This document shows positions 6,357 to 25,198 of a DNA stretch of 43,165 nt, piece after piece. The notes under the pieces are model-generated. The model searched no databases and was not told the origin of the DNA. It saw nothing but the letters and a program-made list of their open reading frames with translations. Origin of the DNA: Actinomycetales bacterium (GTDB lineage: Bacteria > Actinomycetota > Actinomycetes > Nanopelagicales > Nanopelagicaceae); the NCBI GenBank assembly GCA_018969355.1, contig JAGWYO010000012.1, positions 1 to 43,165 on the forward strand, written 5' to 3'. Within the stretch, counting starts at the first letter, position 1; each line of letters begins with the position of its first letter. Made by a program: the position numbers and the translations under genes.

Positions 6357-6937
6357 GCGTTGGCGTAGTTGCCTGCGGGGCACTAGCTACCCATATTGCT
6401 GATATCGCAGCCACAGAATCACTCGATATCACTATCTATCCCCTTCCTCCACTGCTTCATAACCGTCCAGAAAAGATCGCTGGTGAAGTTGATTCACTCT
6501 TACATGAGATTAAAGACAAGCATTCAAAGTGCGCAGTGGCATATGCTGACTGTGGGACATATGGCGCGCTCGATGAGGTCATTGCAACCCATGGTGTGGA
6601 GCGATTGGGTGGAAACCATTGCTATGACATCTTTGCAGGTACAAAGAAAATTGAAGAAATCATGGATTCTGATGCTGGCACATACTTCTTAACTGATTTC
6701 CTCGTGAAATCTTTTCAACGAAGTGTCATGGTTGAACTAGGTTTAGATAAACGGCCTGAGCTTCGCGATGATTACTTTAAGAACTACTCACGAGTGATCT
6801 GGTTGGCTCAGCAACCGAATAAGGAGTTGGAAGAGTTAGCCAAGCAAGCAGGCGCAAGTATTGGGTTACCACTTGAGATTCAAAAGGTGGGATATGGTCA
6901 GCTAGCTGCGCAGGTTAAGGAATTACTGAGTAACTAG
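6353..6937 (+). CDS. DUF1638 family protein of corrinoid methyltransferase operons
   Basis: This 194-residue protein matches the DUF1638 family: an N-terminal VGVVACGALATHI, a central AYADCGTYGALDEVI, and GGNHCYDIFAG with conserved Cys and His, then YFLTDFLVKSF. The recurring Cys/His pairs could hold a metal or bind a thiol or corrinoid, but the function is unknown. From memory, members sit beside corrinoid methyltransferases and RACE proteins, as here. It begins inside the RACE stop (ATGA overlap), so it is the last gene of the methyl-transfer operon. Its 3' end overlaps the end of the convergent formate dehydrogenase gene by 15 bp. Confidence 0.82.
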   Translation: MSVGVVACGALATHIADIAATESLDITIYPLPPLLHNRPEKIAGEVDSLLHEIKDKHSKCAVAYADCGTYGALDEVIATHGVERLGGNHCYDIFAGTKKIEEIMDSDAGTYFLTDFLVKSFQRSVMVELGLDKRPELRDDYFKNYSRVIWLAQQPNKELEELAKQAGASIGLPLEIQKVGYGQLAAQVKELLSN

Positions 6938-9916
6938 CATGACATCAATTGCCTTTAGAACAATTGGTGATAACAAAGACTTATCAACATCATTGCGTAG
7001 TCGTTCAATCATCACTGGAGTCCAGAACTGCACGATGTGGTGGGCAACTTTAATTTCAGGGGCATCTGATGCAGGAATATTGGCTGCTATTTGATTAGCC
7101 ATTCTCACAATCGATGCTAACTGCACATCTCCATCAATATGAGTCTCAACCATGGCACCTGGACCTTGGGCACTAGGAGTAATTTCAACAGCAGTTACCT
7201 TGTATTCAGGACAATTCGTTGCCCAGTCGGAGAAATCAGTAGTGATGACGTTCGCCCCACTTTCTGGGAAGTGGAAAGTTGTGTACACAACCCCGGCTGG
7301 AACTTCATCTGTAATTCGAGCACGCATAATGGTCTCACCCACGCGAGATGAAAGTTTGACCCACGAACCATCGGTTACACCTCGTAGCTGCGCATCTGAT
7401 TCGTGCAGATCCAAAATATCTTCGGTATGCCAGATGTTATTTGCCGTGCGACGTGTTTGTGCTCCCACGTTGTACTGGCTCAATACTCGACCAGTAGTGA
7501 GCAAGAGTGGGAATTTACGTGTGGCTTTTTCATCAGTTGCAACATAGGGAGTGCGCATGAACTGACCTAAGCCGCGCATAAAGGTTTCTAAATGCATCGT
7601 TGGAGTTCCATCTGGATTTGCCTCATTGCATGGCCACTGCACACTACCCACTTCATCAAGTTTTTTGAAAGATACTCCAGCAAAAGTTGGTGTCGTAGCC
7701 GCGATCTCTTCCATGATTTCAGCTCCGCTGCCATAGGACATGGGATAGCCCATAGCAGTAGCAAGATCACACGTAACTTCGTATTCACTCTTTCCTGTTG
7801 GAGATTTCATCACTGGGCGAACACGGTTAATGCGGCGCTCAGCATTAGTGAAAGTTCCATCTTTTTCTAGAAATGATGTACCTGGCAAGAAGACATGAGC
7901 AAACTTAGAAGTCTCATTAAGGAATAGATCCTGCACAATAACCATATCCATGGCGCGAAGTGCTGCGTGAACGTGAGAGGTATTGGGATCTGATTGGGCA
8001 ATATCTTCACCTTGAACATAGAGTCCACGGTAGTTACCGGCAAGGGCAGCATCAAACATATTAGGAATTCGCATTCCAGGCTCTGAATCTAATGTGACGC
8101 CCCACTTGTCATTAAAAATCTTGCGGGTATCAGCATTTGAAATATGGCGATAGCCAGGTAGCTCATGGGGGAATGAACCCATATCGCAAGAGCCTTGAAC
8201 GTTGTTCTGTCCGCGCAGTGGATTAACTCCCACGCCTTTGCGTCCAATGTTTCCTGTGACCATTGCAAGGTTTGCAATACCCATCACCATCGTTGAACCT
8301 TGGCTGTGCTCTGTTACACCAAGACCGTAATAGATAGAACCATTGGGTGCTGATGCAAACAACCTGGCAGCTTTACGGATTTCTTCTGCTGGAACACGAG
8401 ATGATGCTTCCAAAACTTCTGGTGAGTTTTCAGGAAGTGAAATAAAGGCTTCCCACTCCTTAAATGACTTCTCTTCACATCGTGCATCAATAAAGTCACT
8501 CTTTGCTAGACCTTCAGTCACAATTACATGTGCCAATGCATTAATGACTGCAACATTTGTCCCTGGCATCAACTGCAGGTGGTGGGCTGCAACTACTCCA
8601 GGTGTGCGAACAAGTGGAATTACACGAGGGTCAATGACAATGAGCTTGGCACCTTTACGCAGGGCTTTCTTCATGCGTGAGGCAAATACTGGGTGGGCAG
8701 AAGTCGGGTTGGCACCAATCAACATAATGACATCGCTGTGCTCAACAGACTCAAAATCCTGTGTTCCAGCAGATGTTCCAAAGGTCTGGCCAAGTCCATA
8801 CCCTGTTGGTGAGTGACACACTCGAGCACATGTATCAACATTGTTATTGGCAAATGCTGCTCGGACCATCTTTTGCACTACGAATACTTCTTCGTTAGTG
8901 CAACGTGAAGAGGTAATTCCGCCAATGGCATTTCGTCCTGACTCTGCTTGAATCTTCTTTAAGCCATCTGCTGCAAAAGAGATAGCCTCTTGCCATGAAA
9001 CTTCTTTCCAGGCATCGGTGATTGCATTGCGAATCATTGGCTTTGTAATGCGATCTGAGTGAGTGGCATAGCCATAAGCAAAGCGGCCCTTGACGCATGA
9101 GTGTCCCTCATTAGCACCGCCATCTTTGAGTGGAACCATGCGCACTAACTTGTCCCCGCGCATTTCTGCTTTGAAGGAACAGCCAACACCGCAGTAAGCA
9201 CAGGTTGTAATGACAGAGGATGTTGGTGCACCGATAGTCAGCAAAGTCTTTTCAGTTAAGGCACCTGTTGGACAAGCTTGAACACATGCACCACAGGAGA
9301 CACATTCACTTTCAATAAAGGATGTGCCAGAAGAAGAGACACGTGCTTCAAAACCACGGTTCTCAATAGTTAGTGCAAAGGTTCCTTGGACTTCATCACA
9401 TGCTCGAACACATCGATTACAAACAATGCACTCAGTTGAATCAAAAGTGAAATATGGATTCGACTCATCTTTCTTTAAATCTAAATGTGTAGATTGAGCT
9501 GCATAGCGACTCTGCGCAATTCCAACTTTTTTTGCAACTCCATGGACTTCGCACTCATCGCCTGTTGCACACTCTGCGGGGTGATCAGAGAGATAGAGCT
9601 CCATGACACCTTTGCGTAGACGATCTAACTTTTCAGATTGGGTAACAACTTTCATTCCATCTGCAACTGGAGTAGTGCATGATGAAGGTGTGCCATTGCG
9701 CCCATCTATTTGGATGACACATAAGCGACATGAACCAAAAGCTTTAAGGCGATCAGTTGAACACAGCTTTGGAATATCTATGCCCGCCATTGATGCAGCG
9801 CGCATGATGGAGGTATCTGCTGGAACTGTTAGTGATTTCCCGTCGATTTCAAGGCTGACTTGTTGGGCTTTATTGCTAGCCGGCGTACCAAAGTCATGCT
9901 CGTGGATCATTGTCAT
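6923..9916 (-). CDS. fdsA: NAD-dependent formate dehydrogenase alpha subunit with fused FdsD-like tail
   Basis: This is the catalytic molybdenum subunit oxidising formate to CO2, 997 residues. Order: [2Fe-2S] domain (Cys 52, 63, 66, 80), a His-Cys cluster region (H112, C116, C122), two [4Fe-4S] ferredoxin motifs (C163/166/169/173 and C205/208/211/215), an Fe4S4 motif CAYCGVGC with C274, then the bis-MGD domains. The active site is Cys367-His368 (ARVCHSP), so it is a cysteine enzyme, not selenocysteine. After the molybdopterin-binding C-terminal domain, residues from about 934 (VRMANQIAANIP to HHIVQFWTPVM) resemble the separate delta subunit FdsD, apparently fused here. It starts at ATG 9916, overlapping the fdsB stop, and is last in its operon. 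Confidence 0.95.
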   Translation of the reverse strand: MTMIHEHDFGTPASNKAQQVSLEIDGKSLTVPADTSIMRAASMAGIDIPKLCSTDRLKAFGSCRLCVIQIDGRNGTPSSCTTPVADGMKVVTQSEKLDRLRKGVMELYLSDHPAECATGDECEVHGVAKKVGIAQSRYAAQSTHLDLKKDESNPYFTFDSTECIVCNRCVRACDEVQGTFALTIENRGFEARVSSSGTSFIESECVSCGACVQACPTGALTEKTLLTIGAPTSSVITTCAYCGVGCSFKAEMRGDKLVRMVPLKDGGANEGHSCVKGRFAYGYATHSDRITKPMIRNAITDAWKEVSWQEAISFAADGLKKIQAESGRNAIGGITSSRCTNEEVFVVQKMVRAAFANNNVDTCARVCHSPTGYGLGQTFGTSAGTQDFESVEHSDVIMLIGANPTSAHPVFASRMKKALRKGAKLIVIDPRVIPLVRTPGVVAAHHLQLMPGTNVAVINALAHVIVTEGLAKSDFIDARCEEKSFKEWEAFISLPENSPEVLEASSRVPAEEIRKAARLFASAPNGSIYYGLGVTEHSQGSTMVMGIANLAMVTGNIGRKGVGVNPLRGQNNVQGSCDMGSFPHELPGYRHISNADTRKIFNDKWGVTLDSEPGMRIPNMFDAALAGNYRGLYVQGEDIAQSDPNTSHVHAALRAMDMVIVQDLFLNETSKFAHVFLPGTSFLEKDGTFTNAERRINRVRPVMKSPTGKSEYEVTCDLATAMGYPMSYGSGAEIMEEIAATTPTFAGVSFKKLDEVGSVQWPCNEANPDGTPTMHLETFMRGLGQFMRTPYVATDEKATRKFPLLLTTGRVLSQYNVGAQTRRTANNIWHTEDILDLHESDAQLRGVTDGSWVKLSSRVGETIMRARITDEVPAGVVYTTFHFPESGANVITTDFSDWATNCPEYKVTAVEITPSAQGPGAMVETHIDGDVQLASIVRMANQIAANIPASDAPEIKVAHHIVQFWTPVMIERLRNDVDKSLLSPIVLKAIDVMLVTQ

Positions 9917-11442
9917 CGTCGACTCACCTCTCCAGTGAAATCTTCGGGGAAGTTAATCATTGCACTTTTTACTGGCATTGGGGTTAAACCGCCCATGGCA
10001 CACAATGATCCATCGGTCATAACCTCGCACAAATCCAAGAGAAGCTTCTTGTTCTCATCCACCTTCACGCCTTGAATAATTAAATCGATTGTCTCAACAC
10101 CGCGCGTGGAACCGATTCTGCATGGTGTGCACTTACCGCAGGACTCAAGAGCACAAAATGCCATTGCAAAGCGGGCTTGCTGCGCCAAATCCACTGATTC
10201 ATCAAATACAACTATTCCCCCATGACCCAGCATTCCGCCGGCTGCCAACATGGATTCATAATCTAAAGAAGTTTCAAATTTATCTCTTCCAAAGTAAGCA
10301 CCTAACGGTCCACCGACTTGAACAGCGCGCAGCGGTGCACCGCTCAATGTTCCCCCACCATAGCCATTGACGATTTCCTCGATCGAAATACCAAAAGGCT
10401 TTTCAACAATTCCTCCGCGTTTGATGTTACCGGCAAGTTGGAAAACTTGTGTGCCAAGTGATCTAGCAACACCACGTGCTTTATATGCCGGTGCTCCATC
10501 TGCCAATACTGCAGGAATTGTTGAAAGTGTTAATACGTTATTGATCACTGTGGGTTGACCAAATAATCCTTCAAGGGCAGGAAGTGGTGGCTTGGCACGA
10601 ACTACTCCACGCTTTCCTTCAATACTCTCCAACATGGCAGTTTCTTCACCGCACACATAGGAACCAGCGCCCACGCGAATCTTTAATTCAAAGGCATGCT
10701 TGCTTCCAAGAACTGAACTACCAAGCCAGCCAAAAGCATGAGCAATATCGATAGCCTTTTGCAAAGTTTTGATTGCATAGGGATATTCAGAACGTAGGTA
10801 GACAATGCCTTCTGTGGCACCCACTGCAATAGCTGCAATCGTCATACCTTCAATAAGAGTGAATGGATCTCCTTCAATAAGCATGCGATCGGCAAAAGTT
10901 CCGCTATCGCCTTCATCTGCATTACAACAAATATATTTCTGATCGCTCACTGCATCAGCAACTGTCTTCCACTTGATGCCGGCTGGAAATCCTGCTCCGC
11001 CACGTCCGCGCACACCTGATTCTTTTACTTCGTCAATAATTGCCTCTGAACTTAGAGAAATAGCACGGCGCAAGCCCACTAATCCCCCATGGGCTTCATA
11101 GTCTGTGAGTGAAAGGGGATCAATGATTCCAACACGTTTGAAGGTCACGCGATCTTGACTAGCTAACCATTCAATCTTTTCACTCTCACCTAGAGCTAAG
11201 GCGTGAGCACCACCATGCATGAAATCTGCAGCAATCAAAGAGTCAATATCTTCAACAGATACCGGTCCATATGCAACACGGCCCTTTTCCGTTTCAACTT
11301 CCACCATTGGCTCTAACCACAGTGCACCACGTGAACCGTTACGAATAATTGTTGCGCCACTGACCTTATGTGCAATTGCTGCAGCAACATCATCTGCGCC
11401 AACTGAAATTGCGGCACTATCGCCTGGAACATAGATTTTCAT
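9913..11442 (-). CDS. fdsB: Formate dehydrogenase beta subunit (NuoF-like, NAD/FMN)
   Basis: This 509-residue subunit passes electrons from the FdsA clusters to NAD+. It carries the NuoF signatures: GRGGAGFPAGIKWK (NADH site), CNADEGDSGTFADR (FMN site), CGEETAMLESIEGKRG, and the C-terminal [4Fe-4S] motif ESCGKCTPCRIGSTRG, whose fourth ligand is probably the Cys in GSLCAMGG. The roughly 110-residue N-terminal part corresponds to the thioredoxin-like domain of FdsB proteins but has no Cys, so no cluster is expected there. Both ends overlap neighbours by ATGA (fdsG before, fdsA after). FdsG-FdsB-FdsA forms a soluble oxygen-tolerant type of NAD-linked formate dehydrogenase, suited to an aerobe. 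Confidence 0.95.
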   Translation of the reverse strand: MKIYVPGDSAAISVGADDVAAAIAHKVSGATIIRNGSRGALWLEPMVEVETEKGRVAYGPVSVEDIDSLIAADFMHGGAHALALGESEKIEWLASQDRVTFKRVGIIDPLSLTDYEAHGGLVGLRRAISLSSEAIIDEVKESGVRGRGGAGFPAGIKWKTVADAVSDQKYICCNADEGDSGTFADRMLIEGDPFTLIEGMTIAAIAVGATEGIVYLRSEYPYAIKTLQKAIDIAHAFGWLGSSVLGSKHAFELKIRVGAGSYVCGEETAMLESIEGKRGVVRAKPPLPALEGLFGQPTVINNVLTLSTIPAVLADGAPAYKARGVARSLGTQVFQLAGNIKRGGIVEKPFGISIEEIVNGYGGGTLSGAPLRAVQVGGPLGAYFGRDKFETSLDYESMLAAGGMLGHGGIVVFDESVDLAQQARFAMAFCALESCGKCTPCRIGSTRGVETIDLIIQGVKVDENKKLLLDLCEVMTDGSLCAMGGLTPMPVKSAMINFPEDFTGEVSRR

Positions 11443-11864
11443 ATGCGTACCTGAGCAATCTTTTCAACGCTGGCGCGTCCAATAATTGCCCCATTCACCA
11501 TGGCGCTAGGTCCCAACGCACAGTTACCAAAGCAGTATCCATCATGGACTTCTTTACCAAACTTGGCTTTCACATCTTTTTCTAATTGACGTGAACCCAC
11601 AGCTTGACATGCCTCTGCCACACAGATGGAGATCTGGTTATCAGCGGGAGCTTCTGTAAGTAGATCATGGTAAAAAGTTAAGACACCATGAACATCTGCC
11701 CGAGACTTGTTGAAAAAGTTAGCAACTAATGTGACATCTTCCTTATGAACATAACCAAACTCTTTTTGCAGAGCTTGCAGAGCCACAAGGACAGCTCCTT
11801 TTTCTTCGCGCAGAGTCGCAAGAACAGCTAACGCTGCCTCTTGTGACCAAGTCGAATATTTCAT
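11439..11864 (-). CDS. fdsG: Formate dehydrogenase gamma subunit (NuoE-like, 2Fe-2S)
   Basis: This 141-residue NuoE/FdsG protein holds one [2Fe-2S] cluster in the diaphorase part of formate dehydrogenase. Ligands are visible as CVAEAC (C-x4-C) and YCFGNC (C-x3-C), followed by ALGPSAMVNG as in the family. The N-terminal helical part contains ALQALQKEFGYVHKEDV, also typical. It starts at ATG 11864, sharing one base with the fhs stop, and its own stop overlaps the fdsB start. This places the formate dehydrogenase directly behind the enzyme that releases formate, indicating one functional unit. Confidence 0.93.
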   Translation of the reverse strand: MKYSTWSQEAALAVLATLREEKGAVLVALQALQKEFGYVHKEDVTLVANFFNKSRADVHGVLTFYHDLLTEAPADNQISICVAEACQAVGSRQLEKDVKAKFGKEVHDGYCFGNCALGPSAMVNGAIIGRASVEKIAQVRI

Positions 11865-13528
11865 TAAAACAGCCCAACAACCTTTCCATCAACATAATCA
11901 ATACGCTCTGCTGCGGGCAGTTTTGGCAGACCCGGCATTGTCATAATTTCTCCGCAGATCATCACGATAAATTCAGCACCTGCTGAAAGTTTCACTTCGC
12001 GCACATTAATCGAATGTCCACTGGGTGCTCCTCGCAAAGCAGCATCAGTTGAGAAGGAGTACTGCGTCTTTGCCACACAGATGGGGAAATTTCCATATCC
12101 TGATGCTTCAAGCTCTTTGAGTTTGAGGCGCACCTTGGCGTCGGCAGTTACTTCCTTCGCACCATATATCTTCGTGGCGACTTTAGTGATTTTCTCCCAT
12201 AAAGGATCACTATCGTCATAGACAAAACTCATTGTGTTTGGCTTTTCACAAAGTTCAACAACAGCATGTGCTAAATCAGCAGCACCTTTGCCGCCATCGG
12301 CCCAGTGAGTTGCAAGAACAATCTTCACGCCTAGCTTTTCAACACGAGAGCGTAGAAGGTCAACTTCAGCCTTCGTATCACTAGTGAAGTTGTTGATTGA
12401 AACAACTAATGGCAGATTATAGACCTGAGTGATGTTATTGATGTGACGCTCAAGGTTGACAAGGCCTGCTTCAAGAGCTGGCAAATTCTCCTCTGTAATT
12501 GTCTTGAGATCTGCCCCACCGTGGTATTTGATTGCACGAATCGTGGCAACCAATACGCAAGCAGAAGGACGTAAACCTGATTTTCGGCACTTAATGTCAA
12601 TAAACTTCTCAGCACCAAGGTCTGCGCCAAAACCAGCCTCTGTTACAACATAGTCGGCTAGCTTCATCGCTGATGTTGTAGCAACAACTGAGTTACAGCC
12701 ATGTGCGATGTTGGCAAATGGTCCACCATGAATAAAGGCTGGAGTATTTTCTAATGTTTGCACCAAGTTCGGCTGGAAAGCATCCTTTAAGATCACTGTC
12801 ATTGCACCTTGTGCATTGAGCTCAGAGGCTAGAACCGGAGTCTTATCGCGCTTGTAGCCAACAACAATCTTGCCGATTTTCTCTTTCAAATCCTCTATTG
12901 AGGTTGCTAGGCAGAAGATAGCCATAATTTCAGAGGCAACAACGATGTCGAAACCATCACTGCGTGGATATCCATTTCCAACTCCGCCGATAGATTGAAT
13001 GATTTCGCGCAATGCGCGGTCATTCATATCCACAACACGCTTCCAAGTGACACGGCGAATATCAATAGCTAACTCATTGCCATGGTGGATGTGATTATCA
13101 ATCAGGGCTGCAAGTAAGTTGTTTGCAAGGGCTATAGCGTTGAAGTCCCCAGTAAAGTGCAGATTGATATCTTCCATAGGAACAACTTGGGCGTACCCGC
13201 CCCCTGCTGCTCCACCCTTCATTCCAAAGACTGGACCTAGAGATGGTTCACGCAGAGCAATCATTGCGTTTTTACCAATATGGCGAAGTGCATCACCTAG
13301 ACCAACAGTTGTCGTTGTCTTTCCTTCACCTGCAGGTGTCGGGCTAATGGCAGTTACCAAAATCAACTTTGAACTATCGCGCTTTGGAAGTGCGGTCAAG
13401 TACTTAAGGTTCACCTTCGCCTTGTACTTTCCATAAGCCTCTAAGTTCTCTGCATCGATTCCTATGCTGGCACCAATTTCGGTGACTGGCTTCATCGTTG
13501 CAGCTTGTGCAATTTCGATATCTGACAT
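11864..13528 (-). CDS. fhs: Formate-tetrahydrofolate ligase
   Basis: This enzyme interconverts formate + ATP + THF and 10-formyl-THF. The protein is 554 residues, full length for the family, with the P-loop [19 protein letters not shown] (about residues 62-80), [36 protein letters not shown] split over residues 93-130, and the C-terminal [17 protein letters not shown]. In many bacteria it assimilates formate. Placed between a demethylating flavoprotein/ETF set and formate dehydrogenase, it more likely runs backwards, making ATP while releasing formate for oxidation. It lies 4 nt downstream of etfA and overlaps fdsG by one base. Confidence 0.97.
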
Positions 13529-13532
13529 TTTT

Positions 13533-14492
13533 TTATCCCTTAGCTTGACGTATGGCGCTTGTTAGCGCGGGTATTACTTGGTGCAGGTCACCGATAATTG
13601 CGTAATCTGCATAGCTGAGAATTGGAGCTTCTGGATCTGTATTAATTACAACGATTGTTTTGCTGTTCTTCATACCTGCGATGTGCTGCATCGCACCTGA
13701 GATACCAGCTGCGATATAGAGATCTGGTGCAACCTTTGTTCCTGTCTGCCCCACTTGCTCAGCGTGTGGACGCCATCCTGAACTTGTTACGACGCGAGAA
13801 CAACCAACTGTTCCACCAAGTAAATTGGCAAGTTCTTCGATTTGTCCAAAGCCTTCAGGTCCACCAACACCACGTCCACCAGAAACGATTACTTTGGCAT
13901 CAACAAGTGTTACGCCACCCTTTGATTCACCAGCATCACGACTCAATACTTTTACTGCATAATCTTGTGGCTCTAGTGCAGGCTCAAACTCTGCAACAGT
14001 TGCAGCGCCGCCATTTACAGATTCTGGCTCTGTTGAAAACGCTAGTACGGTTGCAATTAAAAGATCTGCGTGAACATGTGCAGATTCAATGAGATTTCCT
14101 GCCCATCGAGCACGCAGCACATGGTGAGGTGCACCTAAAGTAATCTCTGAGCACTCAGCAGCCATTGGAAGATCTAGAAATGCAGCTAAATGCGCTAATT
14201 GCTCATTTCCGCGAGGACTTCCAGCAGCTAACACCGCTGCAGGCTTGAGCTTTTCAACTAAGTCTTTGAGTGCACGCCCTGAAGCCATAGGTGTGTAGTC
14301 GGTGATATTGGCATGGGATGCAACGTGTAAAACCTTTGCACCGTACTCACCAACGATGCCAGCAAGTGCTGCGCCTTCTTTACCAATAACAATTGCTTCT
14401 ACATCTTGGCCTAACGTGCGGGCTGCAGTGAGTGCACGAAGTGAGAGTTGATCTAGTTCACCACGATCGTGATCTACGAGTACAAGAATCAT
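13533..14492 (-). CDS. etfA: Electron transfer flavoprotein alpha subunit
   Basis: This 319-residue FAD-binding ETF subunit accepts electrons from a dehydrogenase. The C-terminal FAD domain is recognised by [48 protein letters not shown] split at residues about 245-268, and [28 protein letters not shown]. It overlaps etfB (ATG in the stop) and is followed closely by fhs. Its position behind the dimethylglycine dehydrogenase-like gene argues that it is that enzyme's dedicated acceptor. The downstream partner, normally ETF:quinone oxidoreductase, is not in the window. Confidence 0.95.
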
Positions 14493-15247
14493 TAGAAAGC
14501 TCCAATCTTCTTGAGGACTTCGACTAGTGCAGGAACGGCATCTGCCCCATTACCTAACACTTCAGCGCCTTTTGCCTTAGATGGTGCAAGAGCTAAATTA
14601 ACTTTTTCCAATTTAGGAACTCGTGGCTGCGCCTTCTTCATATCAACTGGCTTCTTGCGAGCTTGCATACGACCCGGCACTGATGGATAGCGTGGAATGT
14701 TTAAACCATCGCGCACTGTGACAATTGCAGGAAGAGCAACTTCATAATGCTCACGTCCAGCTGCAACTACTCGATCACACACAGCAACGCCATTTTCAAC
14801 TTTCATTGATTTAACGTTGGTGATAATCGGACGGTTGAGTGCATGGGCCACACGAATATGGATTTGATACCCTGCACTATCTGCAGATTCAGCGCCAAAT
14901 ATGATTAAGTCAAACTTGGTCTCTTCAGCATTGATGGCATCAACGAGTGCTGCGGCAGTTCCTTGTGGATCCCACTCTTGTCCATCGGTCTCAATCAACA
15001 CGGCGCGAGTTGCACCAATAGCTAGCTGTGAACGCAGTTGTTCTTCAGCATCACTTGGTCCAAGAGTAAGCAGAGTCAACGTTCCACCCATTTGTTCAAC
15101 GAGTTGAACACCAGCTTCTACAGCATTTTCCTCATGGGGACTGATACCAAAACCTAAATGCTTAGTTTCGATATCGCGAGAATCTGGAGTCAGAATCAGC
15201 GTTCCACCAGCTAATGGAACACGCTTGAGGCAGACAAGTACATCCAT
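14492..15247 (-). CDS. etfB: Electron transfer flavoprotein beta subunit
   Basis: This 251-residue partner of EtfA normally holds AMP. Family features: N-terminal MDVLVCLKRVP, GISPHEENAVEAGVQL, FDLIIFGAESADSAGYQIHIRVAHAL, and the ETF beta signature region VAAGREHYEVALPAIVTVRDGLNIPRYPS. The C-terminal recognition loop that contacts dehydrogenases is represented by the Lys/Pro-rich stretch near residues 190-215. Its start and stop overlap the flavoprotein gene upstream and etfA downstream, so all three should be made in step. Confidence 0.95.
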   Translation of the reverse strand: MDVLVCLKRVPLAGGTLILTPDSRDIETKHLGFGISPHEENAVEAGVQLVEQMGGTLTLLTLGPSDAEEQLRSQLAIGATRAVLIETDGQEWDPQGTAAALVDAINAEETKFDLIIFGAESADSAGYQIHIRVAHALNRPIITNVKSMKVENGVAVCDRVVAAGREHYEVALPAIVTVRDGLNIPRYPSVPGRMQARKKPVDMKKAQPRVPKLEKVNLALAPSKAKGAEVLGNGADAVPALVEVLKKIGAF

Positions 15248-17766
15248 TATGCAAGGATCCGTTCATTTGATGGGTCAAATACTGATGTAGCACCAACTTC
15301 AGCGATTGAACATGGATAGTGCTCACCAAGATATTCAACAAGGAACTTGTTTCCGGCAACAGCTAACTCGGTTGGAAGGTAAGACATAAGGATGTGCTTA
15401 CCAAGAGATGGAGCAGAACCAGCACTTGTTACATAGGAGCGTCGGCCATGTGCATCTGTAATGGGCTTCTTATCCAAAGTAAGGATTGGTTCATTACCCA
15501 TCATGTAGCGCTTGACGCCAGTAGATGATGTGTGGTCATCAACAAAGAGTGTGCACAGCATTGCAACTGGTTTTTGCGCACGGTGCTTCACGTGTGCCTC
15601 TTTGCCAACAAAATCTTGTTCTTTGAGTTTAGGAGTTTGCATTCCCGCTTCAACTACGGTGTATTCAGTTTCAAGCTCTGGTCCATATGCGCGGTAGCAC
15701 TTCTCTAGACGACCAGTAGTTCCATACACACCAATTCCAACTGGAATTAATCCGTGGTTCTTTCCAGCCTCCCATAACGCATCCCACAGAGCTGGACCAT
15801 CAGCCATAGGAACATAGAACTCCCAACCAAGATCGCCAACGTATGAAATACGAGATGCAAGAACTTTCACTCCCTTGATATCGATTTCTTTACATGTGCT
15901 GAACTTAAATGCTTCATGACTCATATCGGTTGAAGTAACTTCTTGAACAATCTTTCTAGCATTTGGACCCCACACACCTAAAGTTGTGTAGTCAGAAGTA
16001 ATGTCTTTGATTTTTGCAGAGCCATCGGCTGGCAATAGATCAGCAAACCACTTCTTATCTGCCATACCGTGTGCACCGCCAGTAACAACGCGGAAGTGAT
16101 CGGTATCTAGGCGCATGATTGTTAAATCAGATTTAAATCCACCATTTGGACCAAGTACAGGTGTGTACACAACACGGCCAATAGCAACATCCATCTGGCG
16201 CAGGGCAGCCTTTTGTACAACAGCCAAAGCTGATGGGCCAGTGATATCAAAGTATGCAAAGGCGGTTAAATCAACGATTCCTGCGCTCTCGCGCATTTGT
16301 AAGTGCTCTGCATTGATAATCGGTGACCACCACCGTGATTCCCATTCAGCAGCACGGGGCATTACTTTGTCGCCAAACTTTGCAACTAAATCCTTATTGG
16401 ATTCATACCAGAACGGACGTTCCCATCCAGCAGTCTCATAGAAGACTGCGCCAAGGGCTGCTTCGCGCTCATAGTAAGGAGACAGGCGAACTTTACGATT
16501 TGATTCATACTGCTCAAGTGGGTGAACGATTCCATAAGTCTTGTTAAAGGATTCAGCCACACGAGACTTAATGTGCTTCTCTTCCTTGTGGTGCTCATGG
16601 AAGCGCGCAATGTTTGATGCATGAAGATCAATATGTGAATCTCCCAGAACCATCCATTCAGCTACAGACTTTGCAGTTCCTGGGCCTTCTTTGATCCAGA
16701 CTGCAGCTACCGACCACAGATTCTTCACTTCTGGAGTTTCGCCAAGAATTGGCATTCCATCTGGTGTGTAAGAAAGGATTCCGTTACATGCATACTTCTC
16801 GCGAACAGATTCATCTCCAACAATAGATGGCATTAGTTCGTAAGCATGCTCATCTTGAATATCAAAATCTGCCTGAGTAAATGCGAACTCTGTAGGAGAT
16901 AGAGCTGCAGTTGCATTCGAAGGAATGTCATCTGGTGTGTAGAGAATTGGACGGTGAGCATACGAACCAATTTCAAGTCCAGTTCCATGTTGGCGCTCAT
17001 ACATGAACACATCCATGTCACGGATGATTGGCCATTCAATATCACCCTTGGTGTCTTTAAAGAATGGGACAGGTCCGATGTCTTTCATCTGGTGAACTGC
17101 AGGTGTTAGTGGAATGTGTGCTCCAGCCATTGCAGCAAGCTTGGGAGACCAGCAACCGGTTGCAATAACAACGTATTCGGCTTCAATTGTTCCTTGATCG
17201 GTAACAACTGCCTTTACAACTGCGTTTTCAACTTTAATGTCTTGCACTTCAACGTTGGCAAATGATTGAGCAGCGCCCATCTCTTGTGCTTTCTCGCGCA
17301 TGATTGTTCCTGTGCGAAGTGAGTCAACGACGCCCACAGTTGGCTGGTAATACCCGCCTAAAATGATGCTTTCATCGATGTATGGCACTAATTGCTTTAC
17401 TTCTGCAGGAGTCAGGATTCGACCACCATCGATTCCCCAAGACTTTGCAGATGTAATACGCCGTGCCAGCTCTTGCATACGCTCTTCTGAACGTGCAACT
17501 TCAATTCCACCAGTTTGCGTAAAAGTTCCAAACTCTTTGTATTGGCGCATACTTTCAGCAGTAATTGCGCTCATCTCTTTTGAGTGATCCACTGGGAAGA
17601 TGAAGTTAGATGCGTGACCAGTTGATCCACCAGGGTTAGGAAGAGGTCCCTTATCAATCTGGACTATGTCTTTCCAACCCAGTTTTGCAAGGTGATAGAC
17701 CATTCCGTTGCCGACGATTCCAGCGCCGATAACAACGCACTTTGCCTTTGCAGGTAACTTACTCAT
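15247..17766 (-). CDS. Dimethylglycine/sarcosine dehydrogenase-like flavoprotein (FAD domain + GcvT domain)
   Basis: This 839-residue enzyme is predicted to oxidise an N-methyl group of an amine and hand the C1 unit to tetrahydrofolate as methylene-THF. Residues 1-390 form a DAO-type FAD domain: VVIGAGIVGNGMVYHLAKLGW at residues 11-31, and GSTGHASNF with His51 where related enzymes bind FAD covalently. Residues about 420-839 form the linker and GcvT-type folate domain (YDLT-like IVDLTAFAYFDITGP, LTIMRLDTDHFRVVTGG, RISYVGDLGWEFYVP). The whole chain resembles dimethylglycine oxidase/dehydrogenase; dedicated ETF genes favour a dehydrogenase. ATG 17766 has AAAGGAA upstream. Dimethylglycine or sarcosine is the likely substrate, linking to betaine demethylation, but the exact amine is unproven. 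Confidence 0.88.
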   Translation of the reverse strand: MSKLPAKAKCVVIGAGIVGNGMVYHLAKLGWKDIVQIDKGPLPNPGGSTGHASNFIFPVDHSKEMSAITAESMRQYKEFGTFTQTGGIEVARSEERMQELARRITSAKSWGIDGGRILTPAEVKQLVPYIDESIILGGYYQPTVGVVDSLRTGTIMREKAQEMGAAQSFANVEVQDIKVENAVVKAVVTDQGTIEAEYVVIATGCWSPKLAAMAGAHIPLTPAVHQMKDIGPVPFFKDTKGDIEWPIIRDMDVFMYERQHGTGLEIGSYAHRPILYTPDDIPSNATAALSPTEFAFTQADFDIQDEHAYELMPSIVGDESVREKYACNGILSYTPDGMPILGETPEVKNLWSVAAVWIKEGPGTAKSVAEWMVLGDSHIDLHASNIARFHEHHKEEKHIKSRVAESFNKTYGIVHPLEQYESNRKVRLSPYYEREAALGAVFYETAGWERPFWYESNKDLVAKFGDKVMPRAAEWESRWWSPIINAEHLQMRESAGIVDLTAFAYFDITGPSALAVVQKAALRQMDVAIGRVVYTPVLGPNGGFKSDLTIMRLDTDHFRVVTGGAHGMADKKWFADLLPADGSAKIKDITSDYTTLGVWGPNARKIVQEVTSTDMSHEAFKFSTCKEIDIKGVKVLASRISYVGDLGWEFYVPMADGPALWDALWEAGKNHGLIPVGIGVYGTTGRLEKCYRAYGPELETEYTVVEAGMQTPKLKEQDFVGKEAHVKHRAQKPVAMLCTLFVDDHTSSTGVKRYMMGNEPILTLDKKPITDAHGRRSYVTSAGSAPSLGKHILMSYLPTELAVAGNKFLVEYLGEHYPCSIAEVGATSVFDPSNERILA

Positions 17767-18519: not shown

Positions 18520-19248
18520 TTAGTAGTACTTGGTAATGAGCCAGGCTGAGGCTCCAAAGCCCACGGTGAGGATGAGCGCCCTGTAGACAAAGGCAGGCAT
18601 CTTTGCGGCATATCGTCCGCCATAGGTTCCCCCGATGCTGGCGCCAATAAGTAGAGCGATGACCACCCCCCAATGGGCTTTGCCGCTGAAGATATAGATG
18701 ATGTTGGAGATCAAGGATGTCCAGCCAACGATTAAATTCTTCGCAGTATTGAGAGTCTTAGGGTCGCGCCTGATGTCGCGAGCTAGGACAGCAATCACCA
18801 TCACACCTTGGCCCGGACCGAAGTAGCCGCAGTACAACCCGCTTCCCGCAATGCCTATTTTTTCAACGAGTTCGTGACGAGCCCCACGATCAGGCTTTGG
18901 TTTGATTAAAAATGACAGACTCGCGAAAAGGAGTAGAAAAGGAACCATTTTCTCAAATACACCAGGTGGCACGGTGAGCAACATAATTGCCCCGGTACTT
19001 GAACCGATGATTGAAATGTAGATAAGGAGTTTGTATTCCTGAAAGTAAGCACGCATCTGATCACGCACGGCAATGAGGGCAAAGAAGTTTGCTGGCGTGA
19101 CACCTAAGGCATTTGAAATTGCCGCACTGACGGGCGACATTCCTGTTGCAAGTAAGACTGGGTAAGAGATAACTGATGCTCCCCCAGCCATTCCATTAAT
19201 TCCGCCGACAAGAATGCCGACGAGGAAAATAATGATGTACTCGAGCAT
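18520..19248 (-). CDS. TauE/SafE (TSUP) family membrane permease
   Basis: This hydrophobic protein of 242 residues has about seven or eight membrane segments. It has the family start MLEYIIIFLVGILVGGINGMAGGASVISYPVLL, with the repeated glycine-rich motif, and a second-half counterpart GSGLYCGYFGPGQGVMVIAVLA. TSUP proteins move anions such as sulfite, sulfonates or organic acids. ATG 19248 is chosen because TATGGT lies 6 nt upstream, a leaderless arrangement; a TTG at 19263 would sit inside that element. It lies 60 bp before the GntR gene on the same strand, so it may belong to the methyl-group oxidation regulon, but its substrate cannot be read. Confidence 0.85.
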   Translation of the reverse strand: MLEYIIIFLVGILVGGINGMAGGASVISYPVLLATGMSPVSAAISNALGVTPANFFALIAVRDQMRAYFQEYKLLIYISIIGSSTGAIMLLTVPPGVFEKMVPFLLLFASLSFLIKPKPDRGARHELVEKIGIAGSGLYCGYFGPGQGVMVIAVLARDIRRDPKTLNTAKNLIVGWTSLISNIIYIFSGKAHWGVVIALLIGASIGGTYGGRYAAKMPAFVYRALILTVGFGASAWLITKYY

Positions 19249-19270
19249 TGGGTAACCATACAATGCGACT
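19249..19270. promoter_or_regulatory. Interlocked divergent leaderless promoters, permease / moaD
   Basis: Only 22 bp separate two divergent ATG codons. On the plus strand TACAAT (19259-19264) is 6 nt before the moaD ATG (19271). On the minus strand TATGGT (19260-19255) is 6 nt before the permease ATG (19248). The two -10-like hexamers overlap by the two bases TA at 19259-19260. Both mRNAs would begin at or next to the start codon. Simultaneous use seems impossible, so the two directions should compete. Confidence 0.6.
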
Positions 19271-19516
19271 ATGGCTATGGATATAGAGATTCGCTACTTT
19301 GCAGCTGCGCGAGCCGCGGCGGGAGTAAGCATTCAGCGCGTTGAACCAGCCTCGCTCACGCAGATTCTGGCCACAGTAAGTGCAGATAACACCCAACTAG
19401 CTCATGTCATTGAGCAGTGCTCATTTCTAGTTGATTCAGTAGCAGTCAACGATATGGATATAGATATTCATGCTGGCAGCTTTATTGATGTCCTGCCACG
19501 TTTTGCTGGTGGCTAA
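19271..19516 (+). CDS. moaD: MoaD/ThiS-family sulfur carrier (molybdopterin synthase small subunit)
   Basis: This ubiquitin-fold protein of 81 residues ends in Gly-Gly (RFAGG), the C-terminus that is adenylated and thiocarboxylated to donate sulfur to precursor Z. The N-terminal IEIRYFAAARAAAGV and the later INDMDIDIHAGSFIDVLPRFAGG-type ending match MoaD. It starts at ATG 19271 with a TACAAT hexamer 6 nt upstream. It faces the moaA-mobA operon and its stop codon overlaps that of moaA by 4 bp. Context favours MoaD over ThiS. No MoeB-type activating enzyme is in the window. Confidence 0.88.
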   Translation: MAMDIEIRYFAAARAAAGVSIQRVEPASLTQILATVSADNTQLAHVIEQCSFLVDSVAVNDMDIDIHAGSFIDVLPRFAGG

Positions 19517-23623: not shown

Positions 23624-23641
23624 TTGGCTAGGATACTGACT
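23624..23641. promoter_or_regulatory. Shared symmetric -10 element between mobA and a metallophosphoesterase
   Basis: The 18 bp between two divergent ATG codons hold TAGGATA (23629-23635). Read forward, TAGGAT (23629-23634) lies 7 nt before ATG 23642. Read in reverse, TATCCT (23635-23630) lies 6 nt before ATG 23623. One near-palindromic heptamer can thus act as the -10 box for both genes, each giving a leaderless transcript. Any -35 elements would lie inside the opposite coding regions. Confidence 0.6.
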
Positions 23642-25198
23642 ATGGCATTTGCGCGTGGTGAAGCAAACGAGTTGGGCTGGCGCAACCTTGTCAAGGTGCC
23701 ATCAGAGGCACATTGTGGGCATGCATTTCCCAGCACTAGCACTCCTGTTTTATTGCTTCACCATCTTTCCGACCTTCATGTCTGTGATGCGCAATCACCC
23801 ACTCGCCCTGAATATTTAGATCGCAATGCCGATCCGGATAGCCCCATTCGTGAACAAGTTGGAACCATTGGCACATACCGTGCACATTCCATGCTCTCTC
23901 CCCATGTTGTTGAATCTATGGTGCAGTCCCTCAACTCAATTACAAAGGGACCACTTTCAGGACATGAAATTGCAGGCGCAATTATTACCGGTGATACAAC
24001 AGATAATGCACAAAAAAACGAAGTCGACTGGTACTTGGCACTTCTAGATGGTTTAGAGATACGTCCTGATTCAGGAGATTTTTCTCATTACGAAGGTGTA
24101 ATTGATGATGAGGCCCAACACTATGACGTTCGGTATTGGCACCCACATGGAACACCGGTGGGCAAAGAAGATGATCTTCCCCGGGCAAAATATGGATTCC
24201 CCATTGTTGCTAATCTTTTAAACACTTGTCGCGCACCATTTAAGGCAACGGGATTAAATTTTCCTTGGTTTGCCGTTCACGGAAATCACGATGGACTTTT
24301 GCAAGGAACCGTTGCACCAACGGATGCTGTCAATAAGGAAATGGTCGGCGGTAAGCGGTATATAGGTTTGCCATCAACGACAAATCTCTTTGAGGTATTA
24401 ATGCAGTTTAGGGAAGTTGGCCCAGCTGGATATCCTCCCGCAGATGATGCCCCATTTATTGAAGTCGCTGCAGATGTGCAGCGACGAGCAATAGAGCGGG
24501 GCGAATATGCACAACTACACCTTGATTCTCCAGGGTTACCACGTGGTCATGGATTTACCGAAGAAAATGCCCGCACTAAGACGATGTATTACTCAACCTA
24601 TATTCAAGCCGTGAAATTAATTGTGATAGATAGTGTTAATCAATACGGTGGTTGGCAAGGCTCAATCGACGAAGAGCAGTTCCAATGGCTGGAAAAAGAA
24701 GTAGCTGAATCTGGTATACCCGTTGTTTTAGCCTCTCATCACCCTTTGAGCAAAATGTTTAATGACTTTGCACCAACTGGACGCCGTGTTTGTGTAGATG
24801 AAATTCGCCACATGTTACTGAAATATCCAAAAGTCATTGCCTGGCTTGCCGGGCATGAACACCGACACCATGTTGAGTGGATTGGCGATGTGGAAGAAGT
24901 TAATGGTTTCTGGCAGATAGAAACTGCATCTCATGCTGATTGGCCACAACAATCTCGCACAGTTGAAATAGTCACCGATGAATCTGGAGATTATTACTTG
25001 GGTTTAACTGTTATTGACCATGCTGCTGGAATTGACTATGGCGCTGCCATTACTCCCCTAGAAATTGCTGCACTCTCTCGAACAATTAGCGCAAATGTGT
25101 GGCAGAAGCGTCCTGAACTTGGTGCAAAGCATGGAATTGATTGGTGGTTAGGTAGAGCTACGGATCGAAATGTGGTCTTAAAGATTAATAAGCGCTAA
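23642..25198 (+). CDS. Large calcineurin-like metallophosphoesterase
   Basis: This is a 518-residue member of an actinobacterial metallophosphoesterase family. The dimetal motifs are in order: HHLSDLHVCDAQ (D-x-H), ITGDTTDN (GD), WFAVHGNHDGL (GNHD), VLASHHPL (H) and LAGHEHRHHVEW (GHxH). No signal peptide is visible, so it is probably cytoplasmic. I start at ATG 23642; the upstream TTG 23624 would overlap the promoter element. The substrate is unknown; a phosphoester or cyclic nucleotide is possible. Its stop overlaps that of the convergent MgtC-family gene by 4 bp. Confidence 0.85.
   Translation: MAFARGEANELGWRNLVKVPSEAHCGHAFPSTSTPVLLLHHLSDLHVCDAQSPTRPEYLDRNADPDSPIREQVGTIGTYRAHSMLSPHVVESMVQSLNSITKGPLSGHEIAGAIITGDTTDNAQKNEVDWYLALLDGLEIRPDSGDFSHYEGVIDDEAQHYDVRYWHPHGTPVGKEDDLPRAKYGFPIVANLLNTCRAPFKATGLNFPWFAVHGNHDGLLQGTVAPTDAVNKEMVGGKRYIGLPSTTNLFEVLMQFREVGPAGYPPADDAPFIEVAADVQRRAIERGEYAQLHLDSPGLPRGHGFTEENARTKTMYYSTYIQAVKLIVIDSVNQYGGWQGSIDEEQFQWLEKEVAESGIPVVLASHHPLSKMFNDFAPTGRRVCVDEIRHMLLKYPKVIAWLAGHEHRHHVEWIGDVEEVNGFWQIETASHADWPQQSRTVEIVTDESGDYYLGLTVIDHAAGIDYGAAITPLEIAALSRTISANVWQKRPELGAKHGIDWWLGRATDRNVVLKINKR

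Follow-up and report, generated by a model that had tools for sequence, protein, structure and literature searches.

The window, by which we mean the whole stretch of 43,165 nucleotides that was analysed, comes as one contig from a genome of 1.40 Mb. It contains a gene for a TSUP permease and a moaD gene that diverge from a gap of 22 bp (19249-19270), the permease gene being read on the minus strand, where its ATG appears as CAT at 19246-19248. The NCBIfam MoaD models match moaD at E 7e-4, which is under the cut-offs of these models. At its 3' end, moaD overlaps by 4 bp with the 3' end of moaA. The Moco genes, which from their orientation and overlap appear to form one operon, sit between the 22-bp gap and a second gap of 18 bp that separates mobA from a metallophosphoesterase gene; both gaps are predicted bidirectional promoters (Table 1). 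Beside the Moco genes, the minus strand from 6923 to 17766 encodes formate dehydrogenase alpha, NuoF-like and gamma/NuoE-like subunits and formate-THF ligase, as well as ETF subunits and a DAO/GcvT-type protein. This is perhaps a cluster for the oxidation of methyl groups to formate, which would need Moco.

Table 1. Features of the two divergent gene pairs and of the genes between them.
Feature	Position	Strand	Basis
TSUP permease gene	18520..19248	-	PF01925 TauE/SafE, Pfam E 6.6e-33
Bidirectional promoter, predicted	19249..19270	.	intergenic TSUP/moaD; constant 22-bp gap in 37/37 distinct sequences
TSUP -10 box TATGGT	19260-19255	-	ends 6 nt upstream of ATG 19248; T, A, T = gap columns 12, 11, 7, constant in 37/37
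moaD -10 box TACAAT	19259..19264	+	ends 6 nt upstream of ATG 19271; T, A, T constant in 37/37
TA common to both -10 boxes	19259..19260	.	constant in 37/37 distinct sequences
moaD (ThiS/MoaD family)	19271..19516	+	PF02597 23.4 bits, cut-off 22.5
Moco genes mobA-moeA-moaC-(mogA/moaB-like)-moaE-moaA	19513..23623	-	Pfam families and gene calls
Second interlocked leaderless promoter, predicted, TANNNTA register (TAGGATA)	23624..23641	.	mobA (-) / metallophosphoesterase (+), 18-bp gap
mobA -10 box TATCCT	23630..23635	-	6 nt upstream of ATG 23623
Metallophosphoesterase -10 box TAGGAT	23629..23634	+	7 nt upstream of ATG 23642
Metallophosphoesterase, TIGR03767 family	23642..25198	+	NCBIfam 340.5 bits, cut-off 330.75

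The opposed -10 elements of the 22-bp gap overlap in a symmetric register, with the pattern ANNNTANNNT of two boxes interlocked on opposite strands around one TA. Since TA is self-complementary, two boxes can have it in common for one extra letter. The initial annotation had placed TACAAT (plus strand) and TATGGT (minus strand) with a two-base overlap, each 6 nt upstream of an ATG, and its coordinates proved correct. The positions of the two ATGs point to a distance of 23 bp between start sites; a gap of 22 bp between start codons is what 23 bp between starts would produce if both mRNAs were leaderless. The second divergent leaderless case that the initial annotation had counted in the window is most likely the one at 23624-23641, for which the corresponding spacing would be 19 bp.

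Conservation of the 22-bp site

A protein search and fetched DNA stretches provided 74 TSUP loci for comparison. A moaD match was found in 46 of them and was missing from seven loci of the genus (L004, L176, L010, L011, L234, L229 and L230); one locus (L009) was cut, and 20 loci of other genera (L236-L255), without a moaD match, were set aside. Another 19 TSUP loci, more distant or paralogous (L013-L031), lie outside this set. Among the named relatives matched via moaD are actinobacterium SCGC AAA044-N04 and Actinobacteria bacterium IMCC19121 (L033), whose 22-bp sequence is identical to that of the window. One contig with an alphaproteobacterial label (L041) bears the terminal part of a moaD of actinobacterial type, with 86% identity across 28 residues; this is perhaps a binning error.

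The 46 loci with both genes represent 37 distinct sequences, when the gap and 120 nt on each side are considered. The gap is exactly 22 bp in all 46 loci and thus in 37/37 distinct sequences, and ANNNTANNNT is present in every one of the 37. The start codon is ATG in 33 and GTG in four of them for moaD, and ATG in 35 and GTG in two for TSUP. Five of the 22 gap columns are invariant (7A, 11T, 12A, 14A and 16T), the outer columns being variable. Four of the five (7, 11, 12 and 16) hold the letters demanded by ANNNTANNNT, and 14A is additional. The odds that five random columns of 22 contain the four box columns are 18/26334, a figure that the kinship of the sequences makes a guide only. Six versions of the core were found, all with intact geometry: ACCATACAAT in 30 sequences, ACCCTATACT in three, and AGCCTATACT, ACCCTACAAT, ACAATACAAT and ACTCTATACT in one each.

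The identity of the 10-bp core in 30/37 sequences is what would be expected if it were the operator of a transcription factor rather than two -10 boxes. Yet the core is not palindromic beyond the common TA, the diverged cores retain the TANNNT letters on each strand, and the identical geometry precedes other gene pairs, which makes an operator extremely improbable. We also considered codon 3 of moaD, in the window a further in-frame ATG (19277), the use of which would mean a 6-nt leader. A leadered moaD starting there was rejected, as this ATG is found in only 14 of the 37 distinct sequences, the window included, whereas the first ATG/GTG stands at 22 bp in all of them.

We also considered the possibility that the permease box alone works, the TACAAT on the moaD side having arisen incidentally from the self-complementary TA plus a chance T, and moaD being transcribed from elsewhere. 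With two letters in common, a box on the second strand needs just T19264. However, this letter (column 16) is constant in all 37 moaD-bearing sequences though columns 18-22 vary, the start codon of moaD keeps its exact 22-bp distance in each of them, and in the window the sole gene upstream of moaD is the permease gene, in the opposite orientation.

Natural losses of the Moco genes

Two relatives (L229 and L230) lack the Moco genes that otherwise separate both promoter sites, and in them TSUP directly faces the metallophosphoesterase gene. Their sequences, AGTATACGTG and AGCATACGTG, retain the permease box (TATACT and TATGCT), and the moaD box is broken, reading TACGTG after a change of its last T to G. 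Similarly, the phosphoesterase box is retained (TAGACT and TAGAAT, 7 nt upstream of the start) and the mobA box is broken. The replacement of T16 by G in the two loci without moaD argues against the permease box acting alone. The intergenic DNA of L229 and L230 aligns with a similarity score of 22, compared with a maximum of 9 in 500 shuffles. Because this similarity is well beyond that of shuffled versions, we counted them as one deletion, from which both probably descend, so that the test of the moaD arm amounts to about one event. On the TSUP tree, the moaD-bearing L228 groups with L230 (98/84) and L229 stands outside (95/79), a placement at odds with a single deletion, unless the tree is led astray by the long branch of L230. 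This conflict is a point in favour of a working permease box and a fortuitous second one.

Two other relatives (L004 and L176) have also been deprived of most of the Moco cluster; what is left is a short piece of moaD and a stretch that matches the N-terminal 80 residues of MobA. Both promoter cores are intact in these despite the loss of moaD, and the retention of T19264 without a working moaD is again as expected if the moaD-side box were a by-product. It counts against a strict tracking of the gene by its box; the deletion is assumed to be recent, which would account for the intact cores. Weighing these points, we regard a single functional box as very unlikely. On the TSUP tree, L004 and L176 adjoin AAA044-N04, apart from L229 and L230, and the Moco cluster has seemingly gone missing between both promoters in these four relatives through at least two deletions. 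Three further loci (L010, L011 and L234) first resembled one-armed promoters. Because in these an ORF reading as mobA ends 3 bp upstream of TSUP on the same strand, without moaD, they were taken as operonic and were not counted as tests.

The second interlocked site was followed in 44 metallophosphoesterase loci, after 13 matches with identities of 39-44% and a further, split one had been left out; L263 and L270 in this set are the L004 and L176 genomes, entered at the second site. TANNNTA is kept in all 35 loci with adjacent mobA sequence, which in two is the 80-residue remnant only, and in none of the nine loci without a mobA match in the fetched DNA. These nine all keep the phosphoesterase box (seven at 6 nt and two at 7 nt), and none keeps the A required by the mobA box. 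They look like two groups (L295-L301, and L281 with L285), so that they provide about two contrasts, and the seven loci L295-L301 may reflect either a loss of mobA or its original absence.

Recurrence of two-sided boxes

The initial annotation had taken the repeated occurrence of such sites as suggesting a recurring design instead of chance and had proposed a comparison with shuffled sequence. Our gene-aware scan was limited to parts of four genomes: 800 kb from G015 together with the window, and 400 kb from each of G014, G060 and G120. Genes were called with a simple caller of our own, in which starts are chosen by coding potential and start-codon type, blind to the upstream sequence. TANNNT was found 6 or 7 nt before 168 of the 430 divergent genes in the four samples, other offsets averaging about 1.4% each. 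Boxes were present on both sides in 42 of the 215 divergent pairs, on one side in 84 and on neither in 89; with respect to the pairs with a gap of at least 12 bp, two-sided TANNNT at 6 or 7 nt was found in 42 of 206. In 500 dinucleotide-preserving shuffles, two-sided boxes numbered 0.47 on average (maximum 4), and overlapping boxes, of which six were observed, 0.17 (maximum 2).

Three of the six overlapping pairs have the TANNNTA register (18-bp gaps) and three the ANNNTANNNT register (22-bp gaps). These registers are the cheapest to make because their two boxes have two letters in common. Two of the six are the sites of the window, and the overlapping TANNNTA sites of L044 and L113 are one orthologous pair. 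The sampled stretches hold 17 divergent pairs with a gap under 30 bp. The divergent genes at L044 (17437/17456) and L113 (13280/13299) appear, from translations read by eye, to be CRP-like and Nth-like; their 18-bp interlocked sites have the identical core TACTTTA and changed flanks.

When compared with independence within each gap class, two-sided boxes showed no excess among the 206 pairs of the sampled stretches. We observed 15 against 14.1 expected for gaps of 12-40 bp, 22 against 23.3 for 40-100 bp, and 5 against 4.2 for gaps of at least 100 bp; with all gaps pooled, the figures were 42 and 31.8.

Pattern scans, whose matches include orthologous copies and hence are not independent events, extended the comparison to more genomes. 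The 22-bp pattern CATN6ANNNTANNNTN6ATG was found 133 times, against 41 for a backward control, in 121 genomes of the family, 40 times against 4 among 15 of them from the genus itself, and 56 times against 18 in 135 genomes that share the class but not the family. The effect was weaker for the 18-bp pattern (136 against 93 for the control; 24 against 9 in the genus) and there was no excess of the 17-bp pattern (58 against 65; 8 against 8 in the genus). With eight matches to the 22-bp pattern, G167 ranked first among the 121 genomes searched.

Recurrence exceeds that in shuffled sequence and, for the 22-bp register, that of the backward pattern; the absence of enrichment that the initial annotation had named as a refutation was not seen in the stretches scanned. 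An excess of pairing that would speak for design is not supported, since the pairing of boxes is at the level of independence within gap classes, and the 17-bp register is without excess. Overall, the interpretation given in the initial annotation is partly supported.

These numbers also bear on the possibility that each site is a mutually exclusive switch coupling moaD with the permease and mobA with the metallophosphoesterase, a layer that could be added to a bidirectional promoter and is compatible with it. In its favour, the geometry would, if E. coli is a guide (PMC12825309), keep polymerase from binding both ways at once, and both interlocked sites are conserved. Yet the frequency of two-sided boxes within gap classes is about that predicted by independence, which gives no support to a regulatory switch. 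Competition between orientations is moreover described for E. coli as having little effect at low basal activity (PMC12825309), and a functional link between permease and moaD would be hypothetical. We therefore consider such coupling unlikely.

Promoter class and proposed mechanism

At the TSUP/moaD gaps, TANNNT precedes the start codon by about 12 bp, a position at which it is enriched over other offsets in the sampled genomes, and the Shine-Dalgarno sequence is lacking. AGGAGG, GGAGG, AGGAG, GAGG, GGAG and AGGA were absent from both strands in 36 of the 37 distinct gaps; the sole such word among the 37 is a GGAG 2 nt upstream of moaD in L006. Among the TSUP loci of other genera, 9/20 have AGGAG or GGAGG within 16 nt before the aligned start. 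A TANNNT about 12 bp upstream is described as the mark of leaderless genes (PMC3160421), and the present sites are like the TA-led leaderless genes of Actinobacteria reported there in this position and in being without Shine-Dalgarno. They are unlike these genes, as that source presents them, in that two signals are interlocked on opposite strands.

A -35 TTGACA at a spacing of 16-19 bp was not found in the window, where the best match on each side has 3/6 letters, a level common at random positions; among the 37 sequences, the best match is likewise at most 3/6 letters in 33 on the moaD side and in 36 on the TSUP side. In 117 leaderless divergent promoters, columns -38 to -30 carry at most 0.05 bits each. 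Matches of at least four letters to TTGACA occur in 29% of the 117 as against about 17% at random positions, and in view of this rise a weak -35 may exist in leaderless promoters. We rejected a -35 hidden in the neighbouring coding sequence, since only TSUP codon 4 stands out (third-position conservation of 0.73, 0.92 and 0.65 for codons 3, 4 and 5) and the best TTGACA matches in nearly all of the 37 sequences are as low as stated above. The scarcity of -35 signal is compatible with sigma-70-type recognition, for which this element is not obligatory, and both promoters can fit in 22 bp because there is little or no -35.

Bidirectional promoters are defined by starts on opposite strands 7-25 bp apart (PMC10268837); a spacing of 18 bp is given as the commonest, 10 and 23 bp being also common (PMC12825309, PMC10268837). 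The bacterial class described by Warman et al. 2021 (via PMC10268837 and PMC12825309) likewise has opposed -10 boxes with common letters, and the spacings deduced here, 23 bp at the first site and 19 bp at the second, would correspond to its 23-bp class and lie near its 18-bp class, respectively. Unlike that class as these sources present it, both RNAs would here be leaderless mRNAs, the promoter would take up all of the space between the genes, and the distance from one start codon to the other would mirror the spacing of start sites.

Our literature search retrieved nothing on leaderless genes in Nanopelagicales or freshwater actinobacteria, and leaderless bidirectional promoters may already be in print. 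Overlapping divergent leaderless promoters near ermE are said to figure in older Streptomyces work, and a study of M. tuberculosis reportedly dealt with TA-led leaderless genes.

Taken together, these findings suggest that 19249-19270 is very probably a bidirectional promoter of minimal size with -10 boxes of the housekeeping type, belonging to the known class of about 23 bp and giving two leaderless mRNAs. The sequence comparisons behind this conclusion are the positions of the boxes, the constant gap, the invariance of the box letters, the breakage of boxes facing lost genes in one genome group and the enrichment in sampled genomes; from them we infer the start sites, leaderless translation and the type of sigma factor. 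The -10 boxes on opposite strands would use one TA (ANNNTANNNT), each 6 nt from an ATG, and RNA polymerase bound either way would begin transcription on the A of the respective start codon, the rightward leaderless transcript being that of moaD and the leftward one that of the TSUP permease. With so little of a -35, a leaderless promoter would be reducible almost to its -10 box. The two orientations would be mutually exclusive, the polymerase presumably occupying one at a time, as it does at bidirectional promoters of E. coli (PMC12825309). The most likely outcome would be a low, constitutive expression both ways from one cheap site, rather than a switch. Such sites may have arisen through compaction by way of the cheapest symmetric registers, followed by selection retaining both arms.

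A broader and rather doubtful proposition is that, in leaderless streamlined genomes, the distance between divergent start codons directly records, in readable DNA, the geometry of bidirectional promoters, the Moco genes being a cassette that is bracketed by two such promoters and whose inner arms decay upon its loss. If competition for polymerase at these sites matters, moaD would be linked with the permease, and mobA with the phosphoesterase, no regulator being needed. The comparison alone indicates that the whole space between divergent genes can be pared down to two interlocked -10 boxes and be maintained so under selection, and the gene losses in relatives amount to natural experiments on the direction that each letter serves. 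A rule that may be suggested for annotating starts in genomes of this kind is the presence of paired TANNNT boxes at 6-7 nt upstream.
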